This document shows, one piece after another, positions 32,015-55,901 of a DNA stretch of 64,000 nucleotides. The stretch is from Streptomyces sp. ICC1 (GTDB lineage Bacteria > Actinomycetota > Actinomycetes > Streptomycetales > Streptomycetaceae). The notes under the pieces are model-generated. The model did no database searches. It saw only the letters and a list, made by a program, of their open reading frames with translations, and was not told where the DNA came from. Position numbers and translations under genes: made by a program. Within the stretch, counting starts at the first letter, position 1; each line of letters opens with the position of its first letter. The stretch covers positions 372,001 through 436,000 of the forward strand of contig NZ_CP030287.1 in the NCBI RefSeq assembly GCF_003287935.1. Reading direction: 5' to 3'.

Positions 32015-32036
32015 GTCAGGGCAGCGTCAAGGTGTT
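32015..32036 (+). promoter_or_regulatory. 11-nt direct repeats upstream of kdpD1
   Basis: GTCAGGGCAGC and GTCAAGGTGTT form two consecutive 11-nt units on the plus strand, about 130-150 bp before the kdpD1 start and pointing toward it. They match the GTCARGRCnnn units found near the other potassium genes of the window. Confidence 0.5.
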
Positions 32037-32165
32037 CGCGCACTGCCGTGACCCGGCCGATTTTCACCTGATGATGATCGTCAGCAGCACTTGTGTGCCT
32101 CTGCCGGCCAGGGAAGCCCTCTGCGCGGATCGGGGCGTGTTCTTTGGCGTGAGGAGGCGCGTGTC

Positions 32166-34646
32166 GTGGTGGAGGCGGTTGCCAGGCCCGGGAGGCTGAA
32201 GGTCTTTCTCGGGGCGGCCCCCGGCGTGGGCAAGACGTACCGGATGCTGGACGAGGGTCGGCGCCGGGCGGACCGTGGGACGGATGTGGTCGTCGCCTTC
32301 GTCGAGTGCCACGGACGCCGCCTGACCGAGGCGAAGCTGGCCGGGCTGGAGATGGTTCCGCGTGCGGAACGTGCCTATCGGGGCGGCCGGTTCGAGGAGA
32401 TGGACCTGCGAGCGGTGCTGGAGCGGCGGCCCGGGGTGGCGCTCGTCGACGAGCTGGCCCACTCCGTCGTCCCCGGTGGCAACCCTGCCAAGCGGTGGCA
32501 GGAGGTGGAGGCGTTGCTCGCGGCCGGGATCGACGTGGTGACCGCCGTCAACATCCAGCACCTGGAATCCCTCAACGACGTCGTCGAGAAGATCACCAAG
32601 GTCCCGCAGCACGAGACCGTGCCGGACGCGGTGGTACGCCGGGCCGATGAGATCGAGCTGGTGGACCTGCCGCCCGAGGCGCTGCGACGGCGCATGGCGC
32701 ACGGGAACATCTACACGCCGGAGAAGGTCGATGCGGCGCTGTCCAACTACTTTCGGATCGGGAACCTCACTGCTCTGCGGGAACTTGCCCTGTTGTGGCT
32801 CGCGGGGCGGGTGGACGAGGCGTTGCAGAAGTACCGTGCCGACCACGGGATAGGGGGAGTGTGGGAGGCCCGGGAGCGGGTGGTCGTCGCGATCACCGGC
32901 GGACCTGAGGGTGACACGCTCATCCGGCGGGCGGCCAGGATCGCCGCCCGATCGGCGGGCGGAGACCTTCTCGCCGTGCACATGGCGCGCAGCGACGGCC
33001 TGGCTGCGGGAGCGTCGGCTTCCGCGTTGGTTCGCCAGCGTGCGCTCGTCGAAAGCCTCGGCGGGAGCTACCACTTTCTCGTCGGCGACGATGTGCCCAC
33101 GGTGCTCACCGAGTTCGCCCATGCGGAGAACGCCACGCAGTTGGTCCTCGGCACGAGCCGGCGCCGTCGTATCGAGCGTTTCCTGACCGGGCGGGGGACG
33201 GGTGAGACGATCGTCGGGCTCTCCGAGGATATCGACGTACACATAGTCACTCACGAACGGGCGGGCGGTGGAAGGCTGTTGCCTTCCAGGCGGCGAACGC
33301 TGCCGACGTCCCGGCTGATCGCCGGACCGGTTCTGGGCCTCGTGCTTCCGTTCGCCCTCACATTCCTGCTCGACCAGACCCGGGGCAGCCTCAACCTCAC
33401 CAGTGAGGCGCTGCTGTTCCTGGTGGCGGTGGTCGGGGTGGCGTGCGTGGGCGGAGTGGTGTCGGCGCTGGTGGCGTCCCTGACCGCGTCGCTTCTGCTG
33501 AACTACTGGTTCATCCCGCCGGTCGGTGAGTTCACCATCGCCGAGCCCAACAACATCCTCGCGCTGGTGGTGTTCGCCGTGGTCGCGGGGACCGTCGCAG
33601 TGGCCGTAGACCGGTCGATGCGGCTGTCGCGCCGGGCCGCCCGGGCGACGGCGGAGGCGGAGACGCTCTCCTCGCTGGCCGGCTCCATCGTGCGGGGAGG
33701 CCAGGCCGTTCCGGCGCTCCTGGAACGGACGAGGGAGACTTTCGGCATGGATTCGGTAGAACTCGTTGATCGCCCGATCGAGGGGGACGACTCCGTCGTT
33801 CAGGTCCCGGTGGGAGGGGATGCGCGTCTCGTCCTACGGGGACGTCCGCTGCCCGCCTCCGACCGGCGCGTCCTGGCCGCCTTCGCCGCGCATGTGACCG
33901 TCGCGGTTGAACAGGCGAGGCTCGCGGAGGCGGCCGCCGAGATCGAACCCGTCAAGGCCGCCGACCGGATGCGTACCGCCCTCCTCGCGGCGGTCAGCCA
34001 CGACCTGCGCACCCCCCTTGCCGCCGGCTGGGCGGCCATCGAGTCCCTGCGGGCCAGCGACGTGGAGTTCAGCGAGGAGGACCGGAACGAACTCCTCGCC
34101 ACCGCCGACGAGTCGATGGCCCGGCTCAACCGTCTCGTCGAGAACCTCCTGGACATGAGCCGACTGCAGGCCGGGGCGCTGAAGCTGGACCTCCGTGCGA
34201 CCCACCTGATGGAGGTACTGCCGGCCGCGCTGGACGGCCTGCCCACCGACGCGCCCGCCGTCGATGCCCAGAGTCTCGAGCAGGCCCCGGCCGTGCTGGC
34301 CGATCCACCGCTTCTGGAGCGCGTGGTCGCCAACCTGCTGAGCAACGCCGCCCGGCACACCCCGCCCGGGCGACATGTGCTGCTGACGGCGAGCTCGTTC
34401 GACGACCGGGTCGAGATCCGGGTCGTCGACCGCGGGCCCGGAATCCCCGAGGCGGACCGCGGACGAGCCTTCGTGCCCTTCCAGCGCCTCGGCGACACCG
34501 ACAACACCACGGGCGTCGGGCTCGGCCTCGCGCTCTCCCGAGGCCTCGCCGAGGCGATGGGCGGCACGCTCACCCCCGAGGACACCCCGGGAGGCGGCCT
34601 GACGATGACCCTCTCGCTGCCGGCTGCCCTTCCAGTTCCCGTCTAG
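32166..34646 (+). CDS. KdpD-type sensor kinase, second copy (orphan)
   Basis: 826 residues with full KdpD architecture: N-terminal KdpD domain with Walker A (LKVFLGAAPGVGKTYRML) and RPGVALVDELAH, Usp domain (VVVAITGGPEGDTLIRRAA), DUF4118 with four hydrophobic helices (about 415-520), then HisKA with AAVSHDLRTPLAAGWAA and the ATPase domain (NLLSNAARHTPP, VDRGPGIPEADRG, GVGLGLALSRGLAEAMGG). After the Walker B the usual NxPG loop reads SVVPGGNPAKRWQEVE. GTG 32166 has GAGGAGG 8 nt upstream. No kdpE is adjacent; it probably signals to the KdpE at 39399-40082. Confidence 0.88.
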   Translation: MVEAVARPGRLKVFLGAAPGVGKTYRMLDEGRRRADRGTDVVVAFVECHGRRLTEAKLAGLEMVPRAERAYRGGRFEEMDLRAVLERRPGVALVDELAHSVVPGGNPAKRWQEVEALLAAGIDVVTAVNIQHLESLNDVVEKITKVPQHETVPDAVVRRADEIELVDLPPEALRRRMAHGNIYTPEKVDAALSNYFRIGNLTALRELALLWLAGRVDEALQKYRADHGIGGVWEARERVVVAITGGPEGDTLIRRAARIAARSAGGDLLAVHMARSDGLAAGASASALVRQRALVESLGGSYHFLVGDDVPTVLTEFAHAENATQLVLGTSRRRRIERFLTGRGTGETIVGLSEDIDVHIVTHERAGGGRLLPSRRRTLPTSRLIAGPVLGLVLPFALTFLLDQTRGSLNLTSEALLFLVAVVGVACVGGVVSALVASLTASLLLNYWFIPPVGEFTIAEPNNILALVVFAVVAGTVAVAVDRSMRLSRRAARATAEAETLSSLAGSIVRGGQAVPALLERTRETFGMDSVELVDRPIEGDDSVVQVPVGGDARLVLRGRPLPASDRRVLAAFAAHVTVAVEQARLAEAAAEIEPVKAADRMRTALLAAVSHDLRTPLAAGWAAIESLRASDVEFSEEDRNELLATADESMARLNRLVENLLDMSRLQAGALKLDLRATHLMEVLPAALDGLPTDAPAVDAQSLEQAPAVLADPPLLERVVANLLSNAARHTPPGRHVLLTASSFDDRVEIRVVDRGPGIPEADRGRAFVPFQRLGDTDNTTGVGLGLALSRGLAEAMGGTLTPEDTPGGGLTMTLSLPAALPVPV

Positions 34647-34728
34647 TGCGACACCCCATCTGGCGTGCCCGCTCGCCTGTTCGCCAGTTTGGCAAAGGGT
34701 CGTCAAGTCCGACCCGCCCCGCATCCCC

Positions 34729-35415
34729 TTACGCCAGGAGGGCGCGCCAGCGGTCGGCCGACTTCAGCATGTCCTCGACGACCCGCTCCAGGAACGTCCC
34801 CACCTTGGCCAGCCGCTGCCCCACGGGTGTGTCCAGCCCGAGCGTCTCGGCCGCCGCCATCGCGGCCTGCGCGGACGAGCGCGTCTGCTGCGAGCTGATC
34901 ACGATCGAGTGGTACCAGGCGTCGTCGTCGACCACGTAGATGTCGCGACGCCGCTGCGGATCGCGCTCGCGCCGGACGTATCCCTGCTGGACCAGGAAGT
35001 TCACGGACACGGACACGGAGGCTGGGCTGACCTTCAGCCTGTGGGTCAGCTCGGCTGCGGTGCGCCTGCCGTCCTCGGACAGCAGCAGGTCGACGTGCAC
35101 GCGCGCTGTCATCCTCGGCAGCCCTGCCCTGACCGCCAGCTCGATGATCTCCTCTTCCATCGCGCTTCCCGGCGCTCCGGCCGGCGCTCCGGCTGTGCAC
35201 GGGGGTGCCGGTGTGCCGCGCTGCGCCCGCTGGACCGTCGCGCGGTGCGCCTGCTGGGGCCGGTAGCCGCCGGGGCTGCCGTTGCGTGCGACCTCCCGAC
35301 TGATCGTCGAGGTCGACCGGTCGAGCCGCCTGGCGATCTCGGCATAGGAGAGCCCATCGGCGAGTCCGGCCGCAATGCGCTGGCGTTCCTGCTGGGTCAA
35401 CCGTCCTCCAGGCAT
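34729..35415 (-). CDS. GbsR/MarR-family regulator with an extra N-terminal HTH
   Basis: 228 residues. The N-terminal 45 residues form an IS30-like HTH (LTQQERQRIAAGLADGLSYA, EIARRLDRSTSTISREVAR). The middle and C-terminal part is a GbsR/MarR winged helix (MTARVHVDLLLSEDGRRTAA, LKVSPASVSVSVNFLVQQGY, VRRERDPQRRRDIYVV). Similar two-HTH regulators accompany cytochrome P450 genes in actinomycetes. It is divergent from the P450 gene, and two CATTGCAT repeats lie between them. ATG 35415 is the likely start; the frame is open to 35463. Confidence 0.82.
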   Translation of the reverse strand: MPGGRLTQQERQRIAAGLADGLSYAEIARRLDRSTSTISREVARNGSPGGYRPQQAHRATVQRAQRGTPAPPCTAGAPAGAPGSAMEEEIIELAVRAGLPRMTARVHVDLLLSEDGRRTAAELTHRLKVSPASVSVSVNFLVQQGYVRRERDPQRRRDIYVVDDDAWYHSIVISSQQTRSSAQAAMAAAETLGLDTPVGQRLAKVGTFLERVVEDMLKSADRWRALLA

Positions 35416-36847: not shown

Positions 36848-39391
36848 TCAGGTCGTGGCTTCGGCCGGGAGGTCGGGGGGCGTCTGCGGGGCCCCGTCCT
36901 TGAGGGGCAGGGTGATCACCATGGTGAGTCCGCCACCGGGGGTGTCCTCGGCGGTGAGGGTGCCGTCCATGGCTTCGAGGAAGCCCCGGGCGACCGCCAG
37001 ACCGAGCCCGACCCCGGCGCCCGCAGGGGTGTCTCCGTACCGCTGGAAGGGTTCGAATATCCGGTTCTTCGCCTCGTCGGGGACGCCGGGTCCGCGGTCC
37101 ACGACGCGGAGCTCGATGCGTGCGCCGAGGGTGCTGGCGGACACAAGGACGGTCTCGCCGGCGGGGTTGTACTTGACGGCGTTCTCGACGATGTTCGCGA
37201 CGGCCCGTTCCAGGAGGCCGCGGTCGACGGCGACCATGGGCAGGGTCTCGGGGATGTCCAGGGCCACGCTGTCGTCGGGGACTCCGGCCAGTGCCATCGG
37301 GACGACCTCGTCGAGGTCGGTCTCGCGGATGAGCGGGACGACGGTGCCCGTCTGGAGGCGGGACATGTCCAGGAGGTTGCCGATCAGGTGGTCGAGGCGG
37401 TCGGCGCCGTCCTCGATGCCCTCCAGGAGATCGGCCCGGTCCTCCTCGGACCATTCCACGTCGTCGGCGCGCAGGGAGGTGACGGCCACCTTGATGCCGG
37501 CGAGCGGGGTGCGCAGATCGTGGCTGACGGCGGCGAGGAGCGCGGTGCGGATCTGATTGCCCTCGATCAGGCGGCGGGCTTCCTCGGCCTCGTCGACCAG
37601 GCGCTGGCGGTCGAGTACGACGGCTGCCTGGGCGGCGAAGGCGCCGAGGACCCGGCGGTCCTCGGCGGGCAGGACCCGGCCTGTGAGGGCGAGGGACATG
37701 TTCTCGCCGATGGGCATGTCGACGTCGGCGTCCTCGGGGCGGGCGACGGGATTGCGCCCGGTGCTGCCCGCGCAGGCCCACGGTTCGACGTCCGTACCGC
37801 GTTCCAGCAGTGCCACGGATTCCATGGCGAAGGTCTCGCGGACCCGTTCCAGCAGTGCGTCGAGGGCGGTTTCGCCGCGCAGGATGCTGCCGGCGAGGAA
37901 GGAGAGGATCTCGGACTCGGCGCGGAGCCGGGCGGCCTGTTGGGTGCGGCGGGCGGCCAGGTCGACGACGGACGCCACGGACACGGCCACGCCGACGAAG
38001 ATCGCGATGGCGACGATGTTCTTGGGGTCGGAGATGGTGAACTCGTGCAGTGGCGGGGTGAAGTAGTAGTTGAGCAGCAGGGAGCCGAAGGCCGCCGAGG
38101 CGAGCGCGGGCAGCAGCCCGCCGAGGAGCGCCGCCGCCACCGTGAAGGTGAGGAAGAGCAGCATGTCGTTGGCGAGCCCGAGCTCGGGAACGACCTGGCT
38201 CAGAAAGACGGTGAGCAGCGCGGGGCCGGCGACACCGGTCAGCCACCCCCAGACGACTCGGAGCCTGCCGAGCCGCGCGCCGCGCGCGACGGGCAGTCCG
38301 CGGCCCTTGGCGGCTTCGTCGTGGGTGACGATGTGCACGTCGAGGTCGGGCCCCGATTCCCGGGCGACGGTGGCGCTCACGCCTGGGCTGAAGACGGATC
38401 GCCAGGATCGTCTGCGGCTCACGCCGAGGACGATCTGGGTGGCGTTGCAGCCGCGGGCGAACTCCAGGAGCGCGTCGGGGACGTTGTCGCCGATGACGTG
38501 GTGGAAGGTGCCGCCGAGGTCCTCGACCAGGGTGCGCTGGACGGCGAGTTCCTTGGGGGAGGCGGCGGTCAGCCCGTCGCTGCGGGCGATGTAGACGGCC
38601 AGGACCTCGCCGCCCGAGCCCTTCTCGGCGAGGCGGGCCGCGCGGCGGATGAGCGTACGGCCTTCCGGGCCGCCGGTGAGGCCGACGACGATGCGTTCGC
38701 GGGCCTGCCAGGTGGAGCGGATGTTGTGCTCGCCGCGGTATTCCTGGAGGTACTCGTCGACCCGGTCGGCGACCCAGAGCAGCGCGAGTTCGCGCAGGGC
38801 GGTGAGGTTCCCGGGGCGGAAGTAGTTGGACAGGGCCGCGTCGACCTTGTCGGGCTTGTAGATGTTGCCGTGGGCCATGCGGCGGCGCAGGGCCTGCGGG
38901 GACATGTCGACCAGCTCGATCTGGTCGGCCCGTCGCACCACCTCGTCCGGGACGGTCTCGCGCTGGCGCACGCCCGTGATCGTCTCGACGACATCGCCGA
39001 GGGATTCCAGGTGCTGGATGTTGACGGTGGAGACGACGTCGATGCCGGCTTGGAGGAGTTCCTCCACGTCCTGCCACCGCTTGGTGTTGCGGGAGCCGGG
39101 GATGTTGGTGTGGGCGAGCTCGTCGACGAGCGCGACGGCGGGGCGCCGCGCGAGGATCGCGTCCACGTCCATCTCGGTGAAGGAGGATTCCCGGTACTCC
39201 AGTTCGCGCCGTGCGATCTGTTCCAGACCGTGCAGCATCACCTCGGTGCGCGGACGGTTGTGGTGCTCCACGAAGGCGACGACGACGTCGGTGCCGCGCT
39301 CCACCCTGCGGTGGCCCTCCGAGAGCATCGCGTACGTCTTGCCGACGCCGGGGGCCGAGCCCAGGTAGATGCGAAACTTGCCGCGTCCCAT
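36848..39391 (-). CDS. kdpD: KdpD, potassium/osmotic stress sensor kinase
   Basis: 847 residues. The KdpD domain has Walker A (YLGSAPGVGKTYAMLSEG) and Walker B (PAVALVDELAHTNIPGS); then come the Usp domain (RIVVGLTGGPEGRTLIRRAA), DUF4118 with four helices, a GAF-like linker, HisKA (AAVSHDLRTPLAGIKVA) and the ATPase domain (NIVENAVKYNPAGE, VVDRGPGVPDEAKN, GVGLGLAVARGFLEAMDG). It senses low K+ or related stress at the membrane and phosphorylates KdpE, which is 7 bp upstream in the same operon. ATG 39391. Closely related to KdpD1 at 32166-34646, which lacks the conserved TN after AH. Confidence 0.93.
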   Translation of the reverse strand: MGRGKFRIYLGSAPGVGKTYAMLSEGHRRVERGTDVVVAFVEHHNRPRTEVMLHGLEQIARRELEYRESSFTEMDVDAILARRPAVALVDELAHTNIPGSRNTKRWQDVEELLQAGIDVVSTVNIQHLESLGDVVETITGVRQRETVPDEVVRRADQIELVDMSPQALRRRMAHGNIYKPDKVDAALSNYFRPGNLTALRELALLWVADRVDEYLQEYRGEHNIRSTWQARERIVVGLTGGPEGRTLIRRAARLAEKGSGGEVLAVYIARSDGLTAASPKELAVQRTLVEDLGGTFHHVIGDNVPDALLEFARGCNATQIVLGVSRRRSWRSVFSPGVSATVARESGPDLDVHIVTHDEAAKGRGLPVARGARLGRLRVVWGWLTGVAGPALLTVFLSQVVPELGLANDMLLFLTFTVAAALLGGLLPALASAAFGSLLLNYYFTPPLHEFTISDPKNIVAIAIFVGVAVSVASVVDLAARRTQQAARLRAESEILSFLAGSILRGETALDALLERVRETFAMESVALLERGTDVEPWACAGSTGRNPVARPEDADVDMPIGENMSLALTGRVLPAEDRRVLGAFAAQAAVVLDRQRLVDEAEEARRLIEGNQIRTALLAAVSHDLRTPLAGIKVAVTSLRADDVEWSEEDRADLLEGIEDGADRLDHLIGNLLDMSRLQTGTVVPLIRETDLDEVVPMALAGVPDDSVALDIPETLPMVAVDRGLLERAVANIVENAVKYNPAGETVLVSASTLGARIELRVVDRGPGVPDEAKNRIFEPFQRYGDTPAGAGVGLGLAVARGFLEAMDGTLTAEDTPGGGLTMVITLPLKDGAPQTPPDLPAEATT

Positions 39392-39398: not shown

Positions 39399-40082
39399 TC
39401 ATCCCTCGAAGCGGTAGCCCATGCCGGGCTCGGTGATCAGATAGCGGGGGTGCGAGGGGTCCGCTTCCAGTTTGCGGCGCAGCTGGGCCATGTAGACCCG
39501 CAGGTAGTTGGTGTGCCCGGAGTACGTCGGCCCCCAGACGTCCAGCAACAGCTTGGTCTGGGTGATCAGCCGCCCGGGATTGGTGATGAGGATTTCCAGG
39601 ATGTGCCACTCGGTGGGCGTGAGCCGCACCGTGCGATCACTACGCCTGACCTTCTTGGCGATCAGGTCGACGGTGAAATCGTCAGTCGTGATCACGGCAA
39701 CCTCGTTGGACGGTGCCGGGATCTCCTGACGGCGGACGGCGGCCCGCAGCCGGGCGAGCAGTTCGTCCATGCTGAACGGCTTGGTGACGTAGTCGTCGGC
39801 GCCCGCGTCCAAGGCGCGGATCTTCTCCTCGGAGGTGTGACGGGCGGAGAGGACGAGGATCGGCACTCCGCTGGTCATCCGTACCTCCTTGATCACGTCG
39901 ATGCCGTCCATGTCCGGCAGACCGAGGTCCAGCAGGATGACGTCCGGCTTGCGCGCGGCTGCCAGTCTCAGAGCGGTGTTTCCCTCGGAAGCCGTCTCCA
40001 CCCCGAACTTCCGCGCCTCCAGGTTGATCCTGAGCGCACGGACGAGCTGGGCATCGTCTTCCACCACCAGCACCTTGATCAT
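39399..40082 (-). CDS. kdpE: KdpE, OmpR-family response regulator
   Basis: 227 residues. The receiver domain has Asp9/Asp10, phosphoacceptor Asp52 (VILLDLGLPDMDGIDV), Ser79 and Lys100. The C-terminal OmpR-type winged helix reads VRLTPTEWHILEILITNPGR, TYSGHTNYLRVYMAQLRRKL and LITEPGMGYRFEG. It activates kdpFABC transcription. As an OmpR-family dimer it is expected to bind direct repeats about 11 bp apart, which is the spacing of the repeats found near potassium genes here. It is separated from kdpC by a hairpin. Confidence 0.93.
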   Translation of the reverse strand: MIKVLVVEDDAQLVRALRINLEARKFGVETASEGNTALRLAAARKPDVILLDLGLPDMDGIDVIKEVRMTSGVPILVLSARHTSEEKIRALDAGADDYVTKPFSMDELLARLRAAVRRQEIPAPSNEVAVITTDDFTVDLIAKKVRRSDRTVRLTPTEWHILEILITNPGRLITQTKLLLDVWGPTYSGHTNYLRVYMAQLRRKLEADPSHPRYLITEPGMGYRFEG

Positions 40083-40181: not shown

Positions 40182-40898
40182 TCAGCCCTTGGCCAGTGCC
40201 TTGAGCGCGGTGTTGAGTTCGAGGACGTTGACGCGGGGTTCGCCCATGAAGCCGAGGGTGCGGCCGGTGGTGTGGTCGGCGACGAGCTCTTCGACCTGCT
40301 TGACGTCGAGCTTGTTCTGCTCGGCGACCCGGTGGATCTGGAGCTTGGCGTACTCGGGGGAGATGTCGGGGTCGAGGCCGGAGCCGGAGGAGGTGACGGC
40401 GTCGGCCGGGACGTCCTCGGGCTTGACCTGGTGGCCGGCGGTGGAGTTGTCGGCGATGACGGCGTCCTTGGCGGCGATGACCTGGGCGCAGAGGGTGCCC
40501 TCCTCCGCCTGGTCGGTGCACTTGCCGTTGATCGCGCCGTTGTCGGCGGAGCGGTTGGTGGCGCCGGAGAGGATCAGCGAGTACTGCGTGTTGACGCTGT
40601 TGCTGCCCAGTCCGTTGGAGGGGCGCGGCTGGAACCACTTCAGGTCCGGCTTGACCGCCTCCTCCGCGTCATCGGGGTTCTGCTTCGGGAGGTTGTAGCT
40701 CTGCCCGATGAGGGAGGAGCCGACGACCTGGCCGCTCTTGTCCTTGATCTCGGAGCCGTTGGCCTTGTCGTTGAACAGGACCTGGGCGATGCCCGTGACG
40801 GCGAGCGGGTAGATGACCCCGCAGATCACGGTCAGAACGAGAAGGGCTCGGAGGCCCGCACCGATCAGGCGCGCTGTGGTGCCTACAGAGTTGTTCAT
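40182..40898 (-). CDS. kdpC: KdpC, potassium-transporting ATPase subunit C
   Basis: 238 residues, one N-terminal transmembrane helix (LRALLVLTVICGVIYPLAVT) and an extracytoplasmic domain. Family motifs are GSSLIGQSYNLPK, WFQPRPSNG, TSSGSGLDPDISPEYAKLQI and HRVAEQNKLD. KdpC stabilises the KdpFABC complex and affects ATP binding by KdpB. It begins 6 bp after the kdpB stop. The protein is about 40 residues longer than E. coli KdpC, through an insertion in the middle that is usual in actinobacteria. Confidence 0.95.
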   Translation of the reverse strand: MNNSVGTTARLIGAGLRALLVLTVICGVIYPLAVTGIAQVLFNDKANGSEIKDKSGQVVGSSLIGQSYNLPKQNPDDAEEAVKPDLKWFQPRPSNGLGSNSVNTQYSLILSGATNRSADNGAINGKCTDQAEEGTLCAQVIAAKDAVIADNSTAGHQVKPEDVPADAVTSSGSGLDPDISPEYAKLQIHRVAEQNKLDVKQVEELVADHTTGRTLGFMGEPRVNVLELNTALKALAKG

Positions 40899-40904
40899 GA
40901 CGGA

Positions 40905-43004
40905 TCAGCCGATTCCGGGGAAGAGGGAGATGAGCATGTCGATGACCTTGATGCCGATGAACGGGGCGATCAGACCGCCCACGCCGTACAGCCCCAGGTT
41001 TCGGCGGAGCATCTTGTCGGCGCTGGTGGGGCGGTACCGGACGCCCTTGAGGGCGAGCGGTACGAGGGCGATGATGATCAGCGCGTTGAAGATGACCGCG
41101 GAGAGGATCGCTGATTCCGGCGAGGTCAGGCCCATGATGTTGAGCTTGTCGAGGCCCGGGTAGACCACGGCGAACATGGCCGGGATGATCGCGAAGTACT
41201 TGGCGACGTCGTTGGCGATGGAGAAGGTGGTCAGGGCGCCGCGGGTGATCAGCAGCTGCTTGCCGATCTCCACGATCTCGATGAGCTTGGTGGGGTTGGA
41301 GTCCAGGTCCACCATGTTCCCGGCCTCCTTGGCGGCCGAGGTGCCGGTGTTCATGGCGACGCCCACGTCGGCCTGGGCCAGTGCGGGGGCGTCGTTCGTG
41401 CCGTCGCCGGTCATGGCGACGAGCTTTCCGCCGGCCTGCTCCCGCTTGATGAGGGCCATCTTGTCCTCGGGCGTCGCTTCCGCCAGGAAGTCGTCCACAC
41501 CCGCTTCTTCGGCGATGGCCTTGGCGGTCAGCGGGTTGTCACCCGTGATCATGATCGTCTTGATGCCCATGCGGCGCAGTTCGTCGAACCGCTCGCGCAT
41601 GCCTTCCTTGACGACGTCCTTGAGGTGGATGACGCCGAGGACGCGGGCGCCCTTCTCATCGTCGACCGCGACGAGGAGCGGGGTGCCGCCGGCTTCGGAG
41701 ATGCGGTTGGCGAGGAGGTCGGCGTCATCGGAGACCTGGCCGCCCTGCTCCCTGACCCAGGTGATGACCGAACCGGCCGCGCCCTTGCGGGTCTTCTTGC
41801 CGTCCACGTTCACGCCCGACATGCGGGTCTGGGCGGTGAAGGCGATCCACTCGGCGTGCGCGAGCTCGCCCTGGTGGCGTTCGCGCAGTCCGTACTTCTC
41901 CTTCGCGAGGACCACGATGGAGCGGCCCTCGGGGGTCTCGTCCGCGAGGGAGGAGAGCTGGGCGGCATCCGCCAGTTCGGCCTCGTCCGTGCCGGTGACC
42001 GGTACGAACTCGGAGGCCTGGCGGTTGCCGAGGGTGATGGTGCCGGTCTTGTCGAGGAGCAGGGTCGAGACGTCGCCCGCGGCTTCCACCGCACGGCCGC
42101 TCATCGCGAGGACGTTGCGCTGGACCAGGCGGTCCATGCCCGCGATGCCGATGGCGGAGAGCAGGGCGCCGATGGTGGTGGGGATCAGGCAGACGAGGAG
42201 CGCGGTGAGGACGATCATCGACTGCTCGGCGCCGGCGTAGATCGCGAAGGGCTGGAGGGTGACGACGGCCAGCAGGAAGACGATGGTCAGCGAGGCCAGC
42301 AGGATGTTGAGTGCGATCTCGTTGGGCGTCTTCTGCCGGGCCGCGCCTTCGACCAGGGCGATCATCCGGTCGATGAAGGTCTCGCCGGGCTTCGTCGTGA
42401 TCTTGATGACGATCCGGTCGGAGAGGACCTTGGTGCCGCCGGTGACGGCCGAGCGGTCGCCGCCGGACTCGCGGATGACCGGGGCGGACTCTCCGGTGAT
42501 GGCCGACTCGTCGACGGACGCGACGCCTTCGACGACGTCACCGTCGCCGGGGATGATGTCCCCGGCCTCGCAGACCACCAGGTCGCCGATACGAAGCTCC
42601 GTGCCCGGCACCTGCTCCTCCACCGAGCCGTTCAGCCGGCGGGCGACCGTGTCCGTCTTGGCCTTGCGCAGCGTGTCGGCCTGGGCCTTGCCGCGGCCTT
42701 CGGCGACTGCCTCGGCGAGGTTGGCGAAGATCGTGGTCAGCCACAGCCAGGCAGTGATGGCCCAGCCGAACCAGTCGGTCGGGTCCTTGATCGCCAGCAC
42801 GGTGGTGACCACCGAGCCGATCAGGACGACGAACATGACCGGGGACTTGATCATGACGCGCGGGTCGAGCTTGCGGACGGCGTCCGGGAAGGACTTCAGC
42901 AGCTGCTTGGGGTCGAACAGCCCCCCGCCCACACGGCCGGCAGGCGGCTTGTGGCCGGTTGGCAGGTCGTCGTGCGGAGCCCTGGTAGGTGTGGCGGTGC
43001 TCAT
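40905..43004 (-). CDS. kdpB: KdpB, potassium-transporting P-type ATPase subunit
   Basis: 699 residues, the catalytic P-type ATPase of the high-affinity K+ pump. Actuator motif [20 protein letters not shown], phosphorylation site [11 protein letters not shown] with Asp318, nucleotide-domain KGAAGSV, hinge [20 protein letters not shown] and the KdpB-type helix [20 protein letters not shown] are all present. ATG 43004 overlaps the kdpA stop (ATGA), giving translational coupling. A diverged orphan copy is at 48066-50213. Confidence 0.96.
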
Positions 43005-44975: not shown

Positions 44976-44998
44976 GGGAAAGGCGGTCGGCGAGCGGA

Positions 44999-45789: not shown

Positions 45790-45811
45790 CGCCTCTTGAC
45801 GGAGCTCTGAC
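45790..45811 (-). promoter_or_regulatory. 11-nt direct repeats between kdpF2 and the KimA-like permease
   Basis: On the minus strand GTCAGAGCTCC (start 45811) is followed directly by GTCAAGAGGCG (start 45800). They point toward kdpF2 and also lie 140-160 bp upstream of the divergent permease gene, so either or both could be controlled. Confidence 0.5.
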
Positions 45812-45948
45812 GCCCTCCTCGCCCCCGCCGCGTATGGAACCCGTGAAGAGTGGCGGGGTGGCCGTATGAATCACGCCAAGGGTGCTGGCGGCCACCCGGT
45901 ACGCCTTCGACGCTGTCCTCACTTTGCTCATTCGGAGGGATCGGCGAC

Positions 45949-47859
45949 ATGGCCTTGCAGGTAGGAAAAGCGATCACGGCGGCTCAGGGGCCGGGCCAGG
46001 AGGAGCCCCCTGATACGGGTGCGAGCCGGGTCGGGGACCGGCACAAACTGACCGCCGTCCAGGGCCTGGCCGCGCTGTCGCTCGACGCGATGGCCTCCGT
46101 CGCCTACGGACCGGAGTCGATCGTCCTCGTACTGGCCGCCGCCGGTGCGTACGGGATGGGCTTCACCCTCCCCGTCACCCTCGCGATCGCCGCGCTCCTC
46201 GCCGTACTGGTGGCCTCGTACCGTCAGGTGATCGCCGCGTTCCCGGACGGCGGCGGTTCCTATGCCGTCGCCAAACGGCACCTCGGCCGGCGTACGAGCC
46301 TCGTCGCGGCGGCCTCGCTGATCCTCGACTACGTCCTCAACGTCGCGGTGTCCGTCACCGCCGGCGTGGCCGCCCTGACCTCGGCCTTCCCGGGCCTCCA
46401 CGGTGAGCGGGTCTGGATCTGCCTCGCGGTCCTGGTCCTGGTCACCGCCGTGAACCTGCGCGGGGTCGTCGAATCCGCCAAGGCGTTCCTCGTGCCGACC
46501 GCGCTCTTCGTCGGCACGATCCTCGCGATGATCACTGTCGGCCTCTTCCGCGACGGCCCGGCAAGCACCGCCTCCGCCGCCGGGCACGCCTCCGCGCTCG
46601 GCGAGGGCGCGACCACCGTCGGCGCGCTGCTCCTGCTGAAGGCCTTCGCGGCCGGCTGCTCGGCCCTGACCGGCGTCGAGGCCGTCGCCAACGCCGTCCC
46701 GTCCTTCCGGGCCCCGGCCGCCCGCCGGGCGCAGCGCACCGAGGTCGCCCTCGGCGCCCTGCTCGGCGTCATGCTGATCGGCCTGTCGATCCTCATCGGC
46801 CGCTTCCACCTCCAGCCCGTCGAAGGCGTCACCGTCCTCGCCCAGCTCGCGGACGCCTCCTTCGGCCACAACGCGGCTTTCTACGTGGTCCAGTTCGCCA
46901 CCATGGTGCTGCTCGCGCTCGCCGCGAACACCTCCTTCGGCGGCCTGCCGGTGCTGATGAGCCTGCTGGCCCGCGACAACCACATGCCGCACTTCTTCGC
47001 GCTCAAGGCCGACCGGCAGGTGCACCGTCACGGCGTCCTCGCGCTGGCCGTCGTATCCGCTGCGCTGCTCGTCTTCTCCGGGGGCGACACCAACACCCTC
47101 GTCCCGCTCTTCGCCATCGGCGTCTTCGTCGGCTTCACCATCTGCCAGGTCGGCATGGTCCTGCACTGGTACGGCGAGCGCCCGAAGGCTTGGCAGGCCA
47201 AAGCGGTCCTCAACGGCTTCGGTGCCCTGCTGACCGGTGTCTCCGCGGTGGTCGTCACCGCCACCAAGTTCACCGAGGGAGCCTGGCTGATCGTCCTCGC
47301 ACTGCCGCTGATCGTCCTCGGCTTCGAGAAGGTCAACCGGGCGTACACGGAGATCGGTGAACGCCTCGAACTCGGCCGCGTCCCGCGACCGCCGCACCGT
47401 GCCCACTCGCTCGTCGTGGTACCGGTCTCCGGTCTCTCCCGACTCACCTGCCAGGCCCTGACCGCGGCCCGCTCCCTCGGTGACGAGGTCCTCGCCGTCA
47501 CCGTCACCCATCCCACAGCCGAGGACCGGCAGTCGACCGACGCCCTCCGCCGGGACTGGGAGCTGTGGAACCCCGGCGTAGAACTCATCGAACTCACCTC
47601 GGAAAAACGGGCGTTGGGTCGTCCTGTGTCCACGTACGTACGAAAGCTCAGCCAGACCCACCCGGGCGCCCAGGTCACCGTGCTCATCCCGGAGACCGAA
47701 CCCGCCCACCTTTGGCAGCGGATGCTCCAGAACCAGCGCGGCTCCGTCGTCGCCCACGCCGTACGCCGCGACACCGACGCCGCGATCTGCCGACTCCGCT
47801 TCCGCCTCGACGCACAGGCCGAACAGGCGGTCCTTGACGGCTCCTTCACGGAGTCCTGA
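45949..47859 (+). CDS. KimA-like APC-superfamily permease, probable K+ importer
   Basis: 636 residues: about 12 transmembrane helices (residues 30-480) and a C-terminal cytoplasmic domain (about 490-630, SLVVVPVSGLSRLTCQALTA, THPGAQVTVLIPETEPAHLW). The first helix region LAALSLDAMASVAYGPESIV and PDGGGSYAVAKRHLGRRTSL match the KimA/YdaO group, which imports K+ with H+. Start ATG 45949 follows GGAGGG by 9 nt; longer forms to 45850 lack a site. Its position between kdp genes and next to 11-nt repeats supports potassium as substrate. Confidence 0.8.
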   Translation: MALQVGKAITAAQGPGQEEPPDTGASRVGDRHKLTAVQGLAALSLDAMASVAYGPESIVLVLAAAGAYGMGFTLPVTLAIAALLAVLVASYRQVIAAFPDGGGSYAVAKRHLGRRTSLVAAASLILDYVLNVAVSVTAGVAALTSAFPGLHGERVWICLAVLVLVTAVNLRGVVESAKAFLVPTALFVGTILAMITVGLFRDGPASTASAAGHASALGEGATTVGALLLLKAFAAGCSALTGVEAVANAVPSFRAPAARRAQRTEVALGALLGVMLIGLSILIGRFHLQPVEGVTVLAQLADASFGHNAAFYVVQFATMVLLALAANTSFGGLPVLMSLLARDNHMPHFFALKADRQVHRHGVLALAVVSAALLVFSGGDTNTLVPLFAIGVFVGFTICQVGMVLHWYGERPKAWQAKAVLNGFGALLTGVSAVVVTATKFTEGAWLIVLALPLIVLGFEKVNRAYTEIGERLELGRVPRPPHRAHSLVVVPVSGLSRLTCQALTAARSLGDEVLAVTVTHPTAEDRQSTDALRRDWELWNPGVELIELTSEKRALGRPVSTYVRKLSQTHPGAQVTVLIPETEPAHLWQRMLQNQRGSVVAHAVRRDTDAAICRLRFRLDAQAEQAVLDGSFTES

Positions 47860-47889
47860 CGCGATTCACCGTGCCGGCGTCAAGACGGC
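47828..47889. promoter_or_regulatory. 11-nt repeats at the permease end, upstream of kdpB2
   Basis: On the minus strand, units GTCAGGACTCC, GTGAAGGAGCC and GTCAAGGACCG start at 47860, 47849 and 47838, inside the last codons of the permease gene; a plus-strand GTCAAGACGGC follows at 47879. Codon constraints may explain part of this, so confidence is lower than for the intergenic arrays. Confidence 0.35.
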
Positions 47890-48065: not shown

Positions 48066-50213
48066 ATGCCTCCCGCCGCCACCCGGCAGGTACCTCCCGT
48101 CCCGTCCCCGTCACAGGCGCCGGTCAATCGGCCGCCCAGAAGACGCCCGGCCGGGCCGCCCCTGCTGGAGTCGATACGGCCGGCGGCCTCGTTCCGCGAG
48201 GCCGTACGCAAGCTCCATCCCCGTGAACTGGTCCGTAAGCCGGTGCTGTTCGTGGTGGCCATCGGATCCGTGCTGACCACGCTGTCGGCGCTCATCCACC
48301 CGTCCGTCTTCACCTGGGTGATCAGTGTCTGGCTCTGGCTGACGGTGATCTTCGCCAACTTCGCCGAGGCCGTCGCCGAAGGCCGCGGCCGGGCCCAGGC
48401 CGAGTCGCTGCGCAAGGCCCGTACGGACACCGTCGCGCTGCGGCTGCGGCACTGGACCTACGGCATGAACCTGCGGCAGGCCGAGACGGAGGCCGTTGCC
48501 CCGAGCGAGCTACAGCCCCTGGACGTCGTACTGGTGGAGGCGGGGGAGCTGATCCCGGCCGACGGCGACGTCATCGACGGCGCCGCGGCCGTCGACGAAT
48601 CCGCCGTCACCGGCGAATCGGCGGCGGTGATCCGGGAGTCCGGTGGTGACCGTTCGAGCGTCACGGGCGGCACCACCGTGCTCTCCGACTCGCTCGTCGT
48701 GCGCGTCACCTCTCGCCCGGGGCAGAGCTTCATGGACCGGATGATCGCTCTGGTCGAGGGCGCGTCCCGGCAGAAGACCCCGAACGAGATCGCGCTCAAC
48801 ATCCTGCTGGCCGCTCTCACGGTCATCTTCATCCTGGTCGTCATCTCGCTGCAGCCGATGGCCTCCTACGCGGGCGCCGCCCAGACGACCACCGTCCTGG
48901 TGGCCCTCCTCGTCACCCTCATCCCGACGACCATCGGCGCCTTGCTCTCGGCGATCGGCATCGCGGGCATGGACCGCCTGGTCCAGCGCAACGTCGTCGC
49001 GATGAGCGGGCGGGCGGTCGAGGCCGCCGGTGACGTGAACACCCTGCTCCTCGACAAGACCGGCACCATCACCCTCGGAAACCGCGAGGCGGCCTCCTTC
49101 ATCCCGCTTCCCGGCATCGACCACATCAAGCTCGCGGACGCCGCCCAGCTGGCCTCGCTGTCCGACGAGACCCCCGAAGGCCGGTCCGTCGTCGCCCTGG
49201 CCCAGCAGTACGGGCTGCAGGCCGTTGCCGAGGAGGACCTGAGCAACCCGCGCTTCCAGGCGTTCAGCGCCCGTACGCGCATGAGCGGGATCAACCTGAG
49301 CTGGGAGAACGGCGCCGGCTGCGCCATCCGCAAGGGCGCGGCGGCCCAGGTGGCCGAATGGGTGACGTTGCGCGGCGGAACCGTACCGGCGGAGGCCCTG
49401 GACTGGTCCAACGGGGTCTCGGCTTCCGGCGGAACGCCGCTCCTGGTGGCCGTCCACGACTGGGACGGCCCGCGGGTACTCGGGATCATCCACCTCAAGG
49501 ACGTCGTCAAGGAGGGGATCCGGGAGCGCTTCGCGGAGCTGCGCGCCATGGGGATCCGCACGGTCATGGTGACCGGCGACAACCCGCTGACCGCCAAGGC
49601 CATCGCACAGGAGGCCGGGGTCGACGAGTACCTCGCCGAGGCGACACCCGAGGACAAGCTCGCGCTCATCAAGCGGGAGCAGGAGGGCGGCAAGCTCGTC
49701 GCGATGACGGGCGACGGCACGAACGACGCACCTGCGCTGGCCCAAGCGGACGTTGGCGTCGCGATGAACACGGGTACCTCGGCCGCCAAGGAGGCCGGGA
49801 ACATGGTGGACCTGGACTCCAACCCCACCAAGCTCATCGAGATCGTCGAGATCGGCAAGCAACTCCTGATCACACGAGGAGCGTTGACGACGTTCTCGAT
49901 CACGAACGACGTCGCGAAGTACTTCGCGATCATCCCGGCGATGTTCACCGCGGCTTACCCGGGGTTGGAGGCCCTCAACATCATGGGGCTGCACAGCCCC
50001 ACCTCCGCCATCACCTCGGCGATCATCTTCAACGCCCTGATCATCATCGCCCTGATCCCGCTCGCCCTGCGCGGAGTCCGCTACAGGCCGGCCTCCGCGC
50101 ACGACCTGCTGCGCCGCAACCTCGCTGTCTACGGCCTCGGCGGTCTGATCCTGCCGTTCGTCGGCATCAAGCTCATCGACCTCCTGGTGTCCACGATCCC
50201 CGGGCTCGGGTGA
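48066..50213 (+). CDS. Orphan KdpB-type P-type ATPase (KdpB2)
   Basis: 715 residues, complete and apparently active: actuator [20 protein letters not shown], phosphorylation site [43 protein letters not shown] and [18 protein letters not shown]. It is about 16 residues longer at the N terminus than KdpB1, with a Pro-rich leader, and diverged in the nucleotide domain. No kdpA or kdpC accompanies it; only kdpF2 and a kdpE remnant are near. It might replace KdpB1 in the complex under some condition or be a relic still under selection. GAAGG precedes ATG 48066. Confidence 0.9.
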
Positions 50214-50218
50214 GATCC

Positions 50219-50251
50219 GTCAAGACCTCATCAGAGGGCCGTCAGGACGCT
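50219..50251 (+). promoter_or_regulatory. 11-nt direct-repeat array after kdpB2
   Basis: Three consecutive units on the plus strand: GTCAAGACCTC (50219), ATCAGAGGGCC (50230) and GTCAGGACGCT (50241). They end 27 bp before the mini-ORF at 50278 and lie upstream of the SDR1 gene. Confidence 0.6.
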
Positions 50252-50277: not shown

Positions 50278-50334
50278 ATGGATGACGTGAACATCGGTCT
50301 GCTCCACGACGACCGGCCGCCGCATCCGGCGTAG
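50278..50334 (+). CDS. Mini-ORF 1 of a two-member family (18 codons)
   Basis: ATG 50278 opens an 18-residue peptide with GLLHDDRPPHPA at its end. The peptide start and pattern (M-[DN]-D-x-x-[IL]-G-x-x-H-[DE]-D-[RQ]-P-P-H) match the mini-ORF at 54744. Both lie at the same place relative to a CTTGAG hexamer (28-29 bp) and downstream of 11-nt repeats. This copy lacks a clear ribosome site and stops early, so it may be a truncated version of a longer gene. Confidence 0.35.
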   Translation: MDDVNIGLLHDDRPPHPA

Positions 50335-50489: not shown

Positions 50490-51296
50490 ATGTCTTCATT
50501 CCTGTCCGGCCGCACCATCATGGTCACCGGCGCCACTTCCGGCATCGGCTACGAGACGGCACGCCGGCTCGCCGAGTGCGGCGCAACCGTCCTCCTGCAC
50601 GGCCGCACCCCGGAAGAGGCCCGGGCAGCGGTGAAGCGACTCATCGCCACCGCCGACGTCGACGCGGAACTCCTGCGGCCGTGCGCAGCGGACTTCGCGC
50701 ACCTCGACGAGGTCGAGAGGCTCGCCATCCGGGTCATCACCGGTCACCCGCACCTCGACGTCCTGGTCAACAACGCCGCTGTCGCCGCCCCCGAGCGTCA
50801 CACCATCACGCCCGACGGCAACGAGCTGACCTTCCAAGTCAACTTCCTCGCCCACTACCTGCTGACGAACCTGCTCGAACCGGCACTCACCAGCGGCACG
50901 GGCGGCCGGGTCGTCAACGTCTCCTCCTCGATGCACCGCACCGCGTCGATCGCGTGGAACGACCCCAACCGGACCCGCCGTTACGCGCCCCTCGCCGCTT
51001 ACGCCCAGTCGCAGCTCGCGCTCACCGTCTTCGCCGCCGACCCCCGCGTCACCGCCGTCTCCGTCAATCCGGGGGTCTGCGAGACCACGCTGAGGCCGCT
51101 GTACGGACACGAGGGCGCGACGCCCGCCGAGGGTGCCGCACACGTCGTGCGGCTGTGCGACCCGGCCGTCGAGATCGTCAACGGCGCCTACTACGACCGC
51201 GGCGAGCGGATGGAGCCCGCCGTCGGCGCGACCGAGGAGCGCACGGTCAAGCGGCTGAACAAGCTCGCCGACCTGCTCGTAGGGCACGCCGCCTGA
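50490..51296 (+). CDS. Short-chain dehydrogenase/reductase-fold protein 1, lacking catalytic Lys
   Basis: 268 residues with a Rossmann fold: cofactor loop TIMVTGATSGIGYETARRLA, LDVLVNNAAVAAPERH, and VVNVSSSMHRTASIAW with the Ser of the triad. The active-site YxxxK reads YAQSQLALTVFAAD, with Gln instead of Lys; the paralogue at 53167-53973 has the same change. It may therefore bind nucleotide without normal catalysis, or use another base. ATG 50490 is preceded by CCTGGAACC only weakly. It follows the 11-nt array at 50219. Confidence 0.82.
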   Translation: MSSFLSGRTIMVTGATSGIGYETARRLAECGATVLLHGRTPEEARAAVKRLIATADVDAELLRPCAADFAHLDEVERLAIRVITGHPHLDVLVNNAAVAAPERHTITPDGNELTFQVNFLAHYLLTNLLEPALTSGTGGRVVNVSSSMHRTASIAWNDPNRTRRYAPLAAYAQSQLALTVFAADPRVTAVSVNPGVCETTLRPLYGHEGATPAEGAAHVVRLCDPAVEIVNGAYYDRGERMEPAVGATEERTVKRLNKLADLLVGHAA

Positions 51297-52222: not shown

Positions 52223-52259
52223 GTGCGTACGGGAACTCCTGCCCCTCCCGCAGGCAAAC

Positions 52260-53059: not shown

Positions 53060-53077
53060 GTGGGAGTCGGTTGCCGG

Positions 53078-53152: not shown

Positions 53153-53166
53153 GTCGGGTGATCCCT

Positions 53167-53973
53167 TCAGGCGGTGTGGCCGACGAGGAGGTCGGCGAGC
53201 TTGTTGAGGCGCTTGATCGTGCGGCCGTCGGTGGCTGCCGCGGCCGGGGCGACGCGCTCGTCGCGGTCGTAGTAGGCGCCGTTGACGATCTCGGTGGCCG
53301 GGTCGCAGAGCATGACGACGTGCGCCGCGCCCTCAGAGGCGGAGTCGCCCTCGTTTCCGTAGAGGGGGAGCAGGCCGGTCTCGCAGATCCCGGGGTGGAC
53401 GGACACTGCGGTGACGCGCGGGTCGGCGGCGAAGACGGTCAGCGCCAGTTGCGACTGTGCGTACGCGGCGAGGCGCGAGTACCGGCGGATGCGCTGCGGG
53501 TCGTTCCACTGGATGGCGGCGGTGCGGTGGAGCGAGGAGGAGACGTTGACGACCCGGCCTCCCGGATCGCTGGTGAGAGCGGCTCCGAGGAGTTCCGTCA
53601 GGAGGTAGTGGGCGAGGAAGTTGACCTGGAAGGCGATCTCGTTGCCGTCGGCGGTGAGGGTGTGGCGCTCGGGTGCGGCGATGGCCGCGTTGTTGACCAG
53701 GACGTCGAGGCGCGGGTGTTCGCGTGCTACGGCGTGGGCCAGGTTCTCGACCTCCTCCAGGCGGGCGAAGTCGGCGGCGAGCGGGCGCACGAGGCTGCCG
53801 CTCACGCTGGAGGTGGCGATGAGCCGGTCGGTGGCCGCCCGGGCCTCCTCGGCGGTGCGGCCGTGCAGGAGGACGACCGCGCCGCGTTCGGCGAGTTGGC
53901 GGGCGGTCTCGTAGCCGATGCCGGAAGTGGCGCCGGTGACGAGGACGGTACGTCCGGACAGGGATGAAGGCAT
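53167..53973 (-). CDS. Short-chain dehydrogenase/reductase-fold protein 2, lacking catalytic Lys
   Basis: 268 residues, same length as SDR1 and closely similar over the whole length but encoded on the other strand 2.7 kb away. It has TVLVTGATSGIGYETARQLA, LDVLVNNAAIAAPERHTLTA, VNVSSSLHRTAAIQW and the altered active site YAQSQLALTVFAADPRVTAV (YxxxQ). The C-terminal end is KRLNKLADLLVGHTA. ATG 53973 has CAGGAATCCGAC upstream. The two copies suggest an inverted duplication. The tiny bL37-like gene follows. Confidence 0.82.
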   Translation of the reverse strand: MPSSLSGRTVLVTGATSGIGYETARQLAERGAVVLLHGRTAEEARAATDRLIATSSVSGSLVRPLAADFARLEEVENLAHAVAREHPRLDVLVNNAAIAAPERHTLTADGNEIAFQVNFLAHYLLTELLGAALTSDPGGRVVNVSSSLHRTAAIQWNDPQRIRRYSRLAAYAQSQLALTVFAADPRVTAVSVHPGICETGLLPLYGNEGDSASEGAAHVVMLCDPATEIVNGAYYDRDERVAPAAAATDGRTIKRLNKLADLLVGHTA

Positions 53974-54549
53974 GTCGGATTCCTGGAAACGGGCATGGCT
54001 GACGTGCCCGGCGCCCCGGCAGAAGGCAGGGCGTGGGCTCAGATCATGCGGCGAGGGTGAGGACGCGTACGGAGCTTCGACCAGCGTCGTTCAAGAGGCT
54101 GGTGGCAGGTACGCGGAGGACGCGCGGCCGATGTATCAGAAGGCCGGGCGGACAGCGGGCGCCGTCGGCTGCACCTGATTCGGTGGCCGATCGTCGTAGT
54201 GCGGACCGCTGTTCATGACCCCATCCCAGCGCATGGGGGATGCGGCGGCAAGATCCTCGGCTGGTTTTGACGGCCTTCTGACGTACGTCGGGTGACGCCA
54301 CCGCAGCCGTCCTCGTGCAGGTCATCAGGGCCGCGTCAAGATCGGCGATCGTGCGCAAGGAACGTGTCAGGAAGTGCCCGCGAGTCCGCCGGCCGGGCAC
54401 AGACTGGTGTCGCGACGGAACCGGAGGACGGGCCGGTGGCACGCGGCTGGCGGGCGGTGGCCTGAACACCGCCGAGGAAGCGCATGGTCCCACCGTGGGG
54501 GTAGGGGCCGATGCGACCGCGTGCCGGTCAGCCGTCGCACAACACAAGG

Positions 54550-54589: not shown

Positions 54590-54683
54590 TCGCGTGTTCT
54601 CGGCCGGCGGGCGGGCCCCGCAGGTCGCCGGCCACCAAGCCGGTGCCTCCCACCCCGGCTTCGGCCAGGCTTGGACGAGTTTC

Positions 54684-54705
54684 GTCAGGGCGGTGTCAAT
54701 TCCCC
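54684..54705 (+). promoter_or_regulatory. 11-nt direct repeats upstream of mini-ORF 2
   Basis: GTCAGGGCGGT and GTCAATTCCCC start at 54684 and 54695 on the plus strand, 60 bp before the mini-ORF start at 54744, almost the same distance as the first unit of the array before mini-ORF 1 (59 bp). Confidence 0.5.
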
Positions 54706-54743
54706 GTATGAGCCCTTGAGCGCAGCCCCACAGGAGCAGTTTG

Positions 54744-54845
54744 ATGAATGACACGGACCTGGGGCAGCGCCACGAGGACCAGCCGCCGCATCTGGCGCTG
54801 CCGACCACGTGCCGCGCTGTCCTCCGGGCGCTCCGGCGCCGGTAG
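54744..54845 (+). CDS. Mini-ORF 2 of a two-member family (33 codons)
   Basis: ATG 54744 follows AGGAG by 7 nt. The 33-residue product has GQRHEDQPPHLALPTT and a basic tail (RAVLRALRRR). Its first half matches mini-ORF 1 at 50278 residue by residue in pattern. The clear ribosome site and repeats upstream make translation plausible. I know no family for it. It may be a small stress peptide or the start of a gene that was cut. Confidence 0.45.
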   Translation: MNDTDLGQRHEDQPPHLALPTTCRAVLRALRRR

Positions 54846-55471: not shown

Positions 55472-55528
55472 CCGGCGCCCCGCCGCCTTTTCTCTCCCGT
55501 TCCGTTCTCTGCCAGGAAGACCTCTGCC

Positions 55529-55819
55529 GTGCTCGTCGCCCGCTCCCTCGCCCTGTTCGCCCTCGCCGCTCTGTTCGAGATCGGAGGCGCTTGGCTGGTC
55601 TGGCAGGGCGTCCGCGAACACAAGGGCTGGATCTGGATCGGCGCCGGCGTCATCGCCCTCGGCCGCATCCTCGCCGCGTACGGCGGCATCCTCGTCGCCG
55701 GGTCGATCGCCTGGGGCATGGTCGCCGACGGCTACCGCCCCGACCGCTACGACGTGATCGGCGCCCCGGTCTGCCTCGCCGGGATGGCCGTCATCGTGTA
55801 CGCGCCCCGGAGCCACTGA
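55529..55819 (+). CDS. YnfA/UPF0060 small membrane protein with internal deletion
   Basis: 96 residues from GTG 55529 (AGGAAG upstream). The UPF0060 family has four helices and about 108-112 residues. Visible are [33 protein letters not shown] and [20 protein letters not shown], ending in [13 protein letters not shown]. About 15 residues normally between helices 2 and 3 (the LYGF...FGR segment) are missing in frame, leaving [11 protein letters not shown]. It could be a damaged or shortened SMR-like protein. Function of the family is uncertain. Confidence 0.78.
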
Positions 55820-55868
55820 CCGAACTCTGCGTCGCTCTGACATCCGCTACTCCATCGGGAGGGTGCGC

Positions 55869-55901
55869 GTTAAGGACGCGTCAGGATTGGCTCAAGTGCG
55901 G
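55869..55901 (+). promoter_or_regulatory. 11-nt direct-repeat array upstream of the second permease
   Basis: GTTAAGGACGC (55869), GTCAGGATTGG (55880) and CTCAAGTGCGG (55891) are three consecutive 11-nt units on the plus strand, 85-115 bp before the permease start and in the same orientation. Confidence 0.6.

Follow-up and report, generated by a model that had tools for sequence, protein, structure and literature searches.

In Escherichia coli, KdpE is an OmpR-family response regulator with an operator upstream of kdpFABC and essentially one target operon. In Bacillus subtilis, cyclic di-AMP reportedly controls the expression and the activity of the K+ transporter KimA. Here we describe a direct repeat with an 11-bp period that precedes potassium genes in a window of 64,000 nt, bases 372001-436000 of a 9.03-Mb Streptomyces chromosome; the coordinates below are window positions. 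The PhoP box of Streptomyces is also an 11-bp direct repeat, with a half-site of the GTTCACC type, while the half-site here is GTNARR, and both the PhoP and the GlnR boxes differ from the present element. Judged from sequence, the repeats are very probably operators of KdpE that serve an enlarged K+ regulon. The operator kind is already known from a mycobacterium: the available text of PMC5401905 describes KdpE of Mycobacterium smegmatis as a positive regulator of kdpFABC, and its site was defined by a DNase footprint and by a 22-bp minimal site in electrophoretic mobility shift assays, CCGTAAAGAAACCATCAAGGCC. The same text calls this box unlike other reported KdpE motifs, and likens the KdpE motif of Clostridium acetobutylicum to the 23-bp T-rich motif of E. 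coli. KdpDE itself is conserved across the genus Streptomyces, according to PMC10117811.

The motif was learned from kdp promoters. From 70 regions upstream of kdpA we removed five from outside the genus, three divergent ones (L003, L004 and L010) and the window's own, which left 61 training promoters, 60 from other genomes and one from the second kdp copy of the same genome (L039). A first expectation-maximization (EM) run settled on a conserved coding start, that of a short open reading frame (ORF) beginning MADLAF, and EM was therefore rerun on the 240 bp upstream of this ORF. The resulting de novo motif, CCGTAAGGGAGCCGTCAACGG, is present in 61/61 training promoters. Its matrix consensus, CCGTAAGGGAGCCGTCAACGGC, is identical without gaps to the M. 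smegmatis minimal site at 16/22 positions, and the latter scores 20.2 bits on the Streptomyces matrix, a value that none of 2 million random 20-mers attained. Given this identity and this score, the 11-bp direct repeat is most simply taken as the KdpE box, the identification that an earlier note on this DNA had offered. In 61/62 kdp promoters the starts of two boxes are separated by exactly 32 bp, the second box lying upstream in 56 of these 61 and downstream in 5. The box is also contained in all five scored kdpA upstream regions of actinobacteria outside the genus (10.8-21.2 bits), at L001 and L029 more than 650 bp from kdpA.

The 23 repeat units that the earlier note had listed in the window are all present, in 11-bp steps inside each group. 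Its literal consensus, GTCARGRC, proved too narrow, since only 6/23 units fit it, whereas the core GTNARR fits 19/23 (all but 50230, 54695, 55891 and 54324). As a search motif the literal form was set aside as unspecific, with 22 matches scattered across 64 kb. At the kdp operon the 11-bp step holds within two pairs but not along one series, the distance from 44964 to 44943 being 21 bp. A count made independently of any matrix found eight GTNARR pairs at 11 bp in a 27.5-kb island, whose borders were drawn after the sites had been seen, versus none in the remaining 36.5 kb. Each other spacing from 7 to 21 bp gave 0-1 pairs in the island, and over 7-40 bp the runners-up were 22 bp (three pairs) and 31, 32 and 39 bp (two each).

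A matrix scan of the window gave 15 matches of at least 8 bits versus 1.03 expected from 30 order-1 Markov sequences, and nine of at least 12 bits, at 44.9-54.3 kb, versus 0.23 expected. The 17 top matches all lie between 32.0 and 55.9 kb. Retraining without L039 (60 loci) gave 13 sites of at least 8 bits and 10 of at least 12 bits, the sites at 54683 and 50207 dropping under 8 bits. Over the whole 9.03-Mb genome the pattern GTNARRNNNNNGTCARR, which had been shaped on the window sites themselves, has 27 matches versus 11 for the reversed pattern; six of the 27 fall inside the window (P = 1.4e-8 for 64 kb), and one more precedes the second kdp operon.

It could be argued that GC-rich DNA yields such repeats by chance or through codon usage, and two matrix matches of 10.6 bits, 41624 (-) and 49494 (+), do lie in the same coding sequence of both kdpB genes; these are not claimed as sites, nor are two 7.5-bit matches, 41481 (+), in the kdpB coding sequence or its complement, and 54354 (+). 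However, the Markov nulls, the spacing test, the between-genome conservation described below and the coding windows of kdpD, KimA-type, permease 2 and short-chain dehydrogenase (SDR) genes, where 0/112 reach 8 bits, 2/112 reach 5 bits and 0/94 reach 8 bits when the last three sets are taken alone, all speak against this explanation, which we consider extremely improbable.

The candidate KdpE boxes of the window are as follows.

44925..44976, minus strand: paired boxes of the kdp operon, 20-bp matches at 44944-44925 and 44976-44957 with starts 32 bp apart (26.8 and 19.3 bits on a matrix made without this promoter)
45793..45812, minus strand: box facing kdpF2 (17.0 bits), with a box at the corresponding place in L146 and L148
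45831..45882, plus strand: paired boxes facing the KimA-type permease gene, 45831 (21.6 bits) and 45863 (14.1 bits), 32 bp apart
47831..47861, minus strand: overlapping boxes at the 3' end of the KimA-type gene (18.1 and 13.2 bits)
50207..50251, plus strand: weak three-unit repeat before mini-ORF1 and SDR1 (8.1, 7.0 and 3.5 bits)
54264..54283, minus strand: box facing the leader ORF and SDR2 (16.8 bits)
54323..54342, plus strand: second box upstream of SDR2, in opposite orientation (12.9 bits)
54683..54702, plus strand: box before mini-ORF2 (9.0 bits), known from this window alone
55868..55887, plus strand: box before permease 2 (9.2 bits)
32014..32033, plus strand: box before kdpD1 (10.9 bits)

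The boxes at 45831 and 45863 had been absent from the earlier list. The statement that the units point toward their gene holds for most sites but fails at 47838-47860, on the minus strand before kdpB2 and directed away from it, and at 54324, directed away from SDR2. Boxes at the place corresponding to 47831..47861 occur in 4/5 island loci of relatives (L144, L145, L146 and L148), and the orientation of 54323..54342 relative to SDR2 is kept in L165 and L166. The weak triplet at 50207..50251 aligns with the conserved SDR promoter box.

The genes and short ORFs concerned are the following.

39399..40082, minus strand: kdpE, response regulator (best family NF007820 KdpE, 252.9 bits; curated cut-off 325)
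36848..39391, minus strand: kdpD2, sensor kinase (best family NF007793 KdpD, 519.6 bits, below the cut-off of 1123; 72-84% to core KdpDs)
40182..44665, minus strand: kdpA, kdpB and kdpC (KdpA 670.7 bits, above the cut-off; KdpC by Pfam; P-type ATPase domains in kdpB)
44668-44757, minus strand: kdpF (TIGR02115)
44754-44837, minus strand: 27-aa hydrophobic ORF MADLAF..., just upstream of kdpF and overlapping it
45605..45703, minus strand: kdpF2 (TIGR02115, 28.4 bits; cut-off 26.85)
45949..47859, plus strand: KimA-type permease (permease 1), a KimA homologue (6s3k, E = 3.6e-128)
48066..50213, plus strand: kdpB2, a second KdpB (TIGR01497, 991.5 bits) with no A or C gene adjoining
50287..50334, plus strand: mini-ORF1, leader ORF, VNIGLLHDDRPPHPA, of a conserved DRPP leader family
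50490..51296, plus strand: SDR1 (adh_short; 76% to SDR2)
54136..54216, minus strand: leader ORF of SDR2, MNSGPHYDDRPPNQVQPTAPAVRPAF
53167..53973, minus strand: SDR2 (adh_short)
54744..54845, plus strand: mini-ORF2, leader-like, MNDTDLGQRHEDQPPHLA...
55985..57922, plus strand: permease 2, APC family, distantly KimA-like by hhalign to the KimA-type profile

Thus the genome encodes both KdpE and KdpD, as a KdpE operator requires. Boxes were then counted in 400-bp upstream regions of orthologous genes, on either strand, at a threshold of at least 8 bits and with the window's own loci included for the KimA-type, permease 2 and SDR sets. The kdpD set comprises 18 core loci, 20 kdpDE loci less L224 and L233, which have no kdpD match; 15/18 have an upstream box. 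The genome of L233 carries two boxes before kdpE itself, and in G018 two boxes 32 bp apart precede a kdpE. Among seven genomes that lack kdpA, a box precedes kdpD in five (G012, G020, G025, G029 and G056; 8.4-20.4 bits) and none was found before kdpD in G002 and G024. The box is thus present before kdpDE in most of the genomes without kdpA, which, with the likeness to the mycobacterial site, lends support to the identification of the repeat as a KdpE box.

Beyond the kdp genes, a box is present in 20/28 KimA-type upstream regions, with L207 and L208 not counted, and a sense box of at least 5 bits lies within 260 bp in 18/28. It is found in 13/16 SDR upstream regions, and in 21/50 of those of permease 2, under half at this threshold; in the near clade of permease 2 it lies at -113 to -128, and 9/11 loci have a sense box of at least 5 bits within 260 bp. 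The KimA-type and permease 2 counts are upper figures for the genes' own boxes, because the upstream windows can hold boxes of divergent neighbors. The commonest box offset upstream of KimA-type, permease 2 and kdpD genes is 32 bp, although a divergent kdp operon may account for some of the permease 2 pairs; upstream of SDR genes 11 bp is the commonest and 32 bp the second. Four of the five relatives' islands group the KimA-type gene with kdpB2 and permease 2 and have boxes at equivalent places; L147 is the one without kdpB2. With boxes before many of their orthologues, the permeases, SDRs and mini-ORFs would indeed belong to one regulon, as the earlier note had proposed, and K+ shortage probably governs a wider gene set than the Kdp pump, since the box precedes transporters and oxidoreductases and is often kept in relatives.

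A narrower view limits KdpE control to kdpFABC and kdpDE and takes the boxes at the SDRs, mini-ORF2, kdpD1 and permease 2 for weak sites or relics that island rearrangement has left behind. The scores at kdpD1, mini-ORF2, permease 2 and SDR1 are indeed lower (3.5-10.9 bits), and the island looks rearranged because it holds two fragments, a kdpE-like receiver fragment at 52759-52923 (+), with 58% over 55 residues, and a truncated KdpD-type DUF4118 ORF at 44999-45574 (-), after kdpF2, which is also found in 4/5 relatives' islands. As the SDR and permease 2 boxes are nevertheless conserved before orthologues elsewhere, we regard this narrower view as rather unlikely.

Several of the neighboring features deserve mention. 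The MADLAF ORF has exactly 27 aa in 62/62 Streptomyces kdp promoters and no NCBIfam match. In the consensus of the 62 Streptomyces kdp promoters, a second conserved element, GGTTTNCTC, follows the best box, at about 43-51 bp from its start; this element is possibly part of the core promoter, and the window's own promoter deviates from it. KdpB2 is 70.7% to KdpB and retains the P-type ATPase motifs TGES, DKTGT, TGDN and GDGTND; its gene adjoins the KimA-type gene in 4/5 relatives' islands. Permease 2 aligns to the KimA-type profile in hhalign with a probability of 93.5% over 549 columns, from shallow alignments. Its homologues bear the names APC family permease or amino acid transporter, and its closest relatives among the matches listed are nearly all Streptomyces. 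It has no Pfam or NCBIfam match, its profile matched nothing meaningful among solved structures, and its AlphaFold model has a mean predicted local distance difference test score (pLDDT) of 48. An Rfam search of the window returned no family at gathering score.

The SDR promoters appear to share one order of elements: the box, a -35-like CTTG, in most loci a -10-like TTNNAT, and a short ORF starting GTG/ATG-AAC. These elements and a leaderless start of the ORF are read from the alignment. A short ORF with a DRPP motif precedes the SDR gene in 16/16 SDR loci, the two of the window included. Mini-ORF1 belongs to these leader ORFs and mini-ORF2 resembles them. DRPPH-like leader ORFs sit downstream of a candidate KdpE box at three places in the window (50287-50334 +, 54136-54216 - and 54744-54845 +).

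Pattern matches elsewhere in the same genome were also scored by the matrix. Of 18 stretches outside the window and the second kdp copy, five reach 8 bits. One site precedes the gene of a cation/H+ exchanger that has a TrkA_C domain (L251), one is close to where a KdpD-domain protein begins (L254, 9.2 bits), one is at the gene of an M6 peptidase (L250), and two are at further genes (L248 and L253). The protein of L254, 2-1828 (-), at about 6.19 Mb, has KdpD, Usp and DUF4118 domains and is truncated where the stretch ends. Upstream of the second kdpE of the genome (6.36 Mb), a glucanase-like gene takes the place of kdpD.

A number of results weigh against reading the repeats as KdpE operators of a wide regulon. 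The other 13 of these 18 stretches stay below 8 bits. No box was found at the divergent kdpA loci L003 and L004, and at L010 it lies on the other strand; 3/18 kdpD upstream regions have none, and the box before kdpD1 is known from this window alone. Boxes are also missing upstream of L207 and L208, which are 55% KimA homologues, and of the second KimA-type gene of the same genome. In the wider permease 2 clade the box orientation is inverted and many matches score about 2.6 bits (e.g. CGTCAAGCTTCCGTTAAGAC), under the threshold, and more distant permease 2 paralogues have a box in 3/15. The conservation counts share ancestry, relatives not being independent samples. Moreover, the genome has 83 matches to a KdpE query, receiver-only proteins included, so that cross-binding by another OmpR-family protein is possible. 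Genomes that lack KdpE supply further points of this kind: the five taken together have 13 pattern matches versus 10 for the control, and G016, which is without kdpDE, has 8 versus 1 and retains a 15.4-bit repeat before the antiporter. This antiporter repeat is missing in G042 and also in the KdpE-bearing G046 and G049.

The presence/absence comparison is itself weak because KdpE is nearly universal, being present in 194/199 Streptomyces genomes; the five without it are also without KdpD. In favor of the KdpE reading, permease 2 is found in 0/5 of the KdpE-less genomes versus 106/194 others (Fisher P = 0.021). The only two genomes with zero GTNARGNNNNCGTCAA matches, G159 and G181, are both KdpE-less, but they are small, which weakens this contrast too.

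The antiporter is the cation/H+ exchanger noted above, preceded at L251 1723-1742 (-) by a box-like repeat and a longer conserved core around TTAGGTAAGGTAACGAAGT. Its upstream regions L263-L292 reach 8 bits in 28/30 cases (13/30 in a set with an unsuitable start, which also gave one coding window at 16.6 bits). In eight further loci four reach 8 bits and one 5.4 bits, and G042, G046 and G049 have none. As its conserved core is longer, another regulator may use this promoter, and in view of this core and of its persistence in G016 the antiporter was not counted as a KdpE target.

These data bear on an alternative in which the 11-bp repeats serve a different OmpR-family regulator, or several in common, as operators, with the K+ genes only some of the targets. 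The many OmpR-type relatives in the genome and the behavior of the antiporter repeat, kept in the kdpDE-less G016 and absent in the KdpE-bearing G046 and G049, would fit such a regulator. The likeness of the box to the minimal site of M. smegmatis KdpE and its position before kdpDE itself, also in most of the kdpA-less genomes, speak against it, and we consider this alternative improbable.

If the repeats are KdpE operators, a mechanism can be sketched, in which we infer binding in Streptomyces, the dimer arrangement, the direction of regulation and the K+ signal. KdpE dimers would bind a pair of half-sites at 11-bp spacing (GTNARRNNNCC-GTCAARG). At kdp and some other promoters there are two boxes 32 bp apart; this is about three helical turns, and therefore two dimers could sit side by side on one face of the DNA. 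When K+ is scarce, KdpD would phosphorylate KdpE, which would then activate transcription from a single box or from two. The genes activated as one K+-homeostasis regulon would be kdpFABC, kdpDE, the KimA-type permease, permease 2 and the leader-ORF/SDR units, with sign and signal at the promoters other than kdpFABC presumably the same. A more ambitious proposal, which we put forward tentatively and with somewhat less than even confidence, is that KdpE is a general K+-homeostasis regulator: the 32-bp tandem would drive kdpFABC, the KimA-type permease and the second APC permease, a redox branch would consist of the DRPPH leader ORF, possibly a leaderless attenuator, before the SDR gene, and the cation/H+ antiporter may form an opposing branch. 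The analysis yields a specific operator together with a 32-bp rule for tandem boxes and a list of candidate targets. If this holds, K+ starvation should induce not only Kdp but also a short-chain dehydrogenase and transport of the KimA and APC types.

Among the literature matches listed, we found no account of a KdpE regulon in Streptomyces or other actinobacteria, nor of the 32-bp pairing. On Streptomyces KdpDE, the passages covered of PMC10117811 deal with S. venezuelae development on standard medium and with growth at 0.5 M NaCl or KCl, and they give no regulon. Permease 1 is homologous to the K+ transporter KimA (PDB 6s3k), and here a KdpE box would precede its gene. The KdpE operator of E. 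coli is T-rich and thus unlike the Streptomyces box, although both regulators are of the OmpR family and both operators lie upstream of kdpFABC. The M. smegmatis site, as described in the available text of PMC5401905, is also upstream of kdpFABC and shares 16/22 positions with the Streptomyces consensus. It differs in being one 22-bp box at kdpF, whereas Streptomyces has two boxes 32 bp apart and boxes before further gene families.

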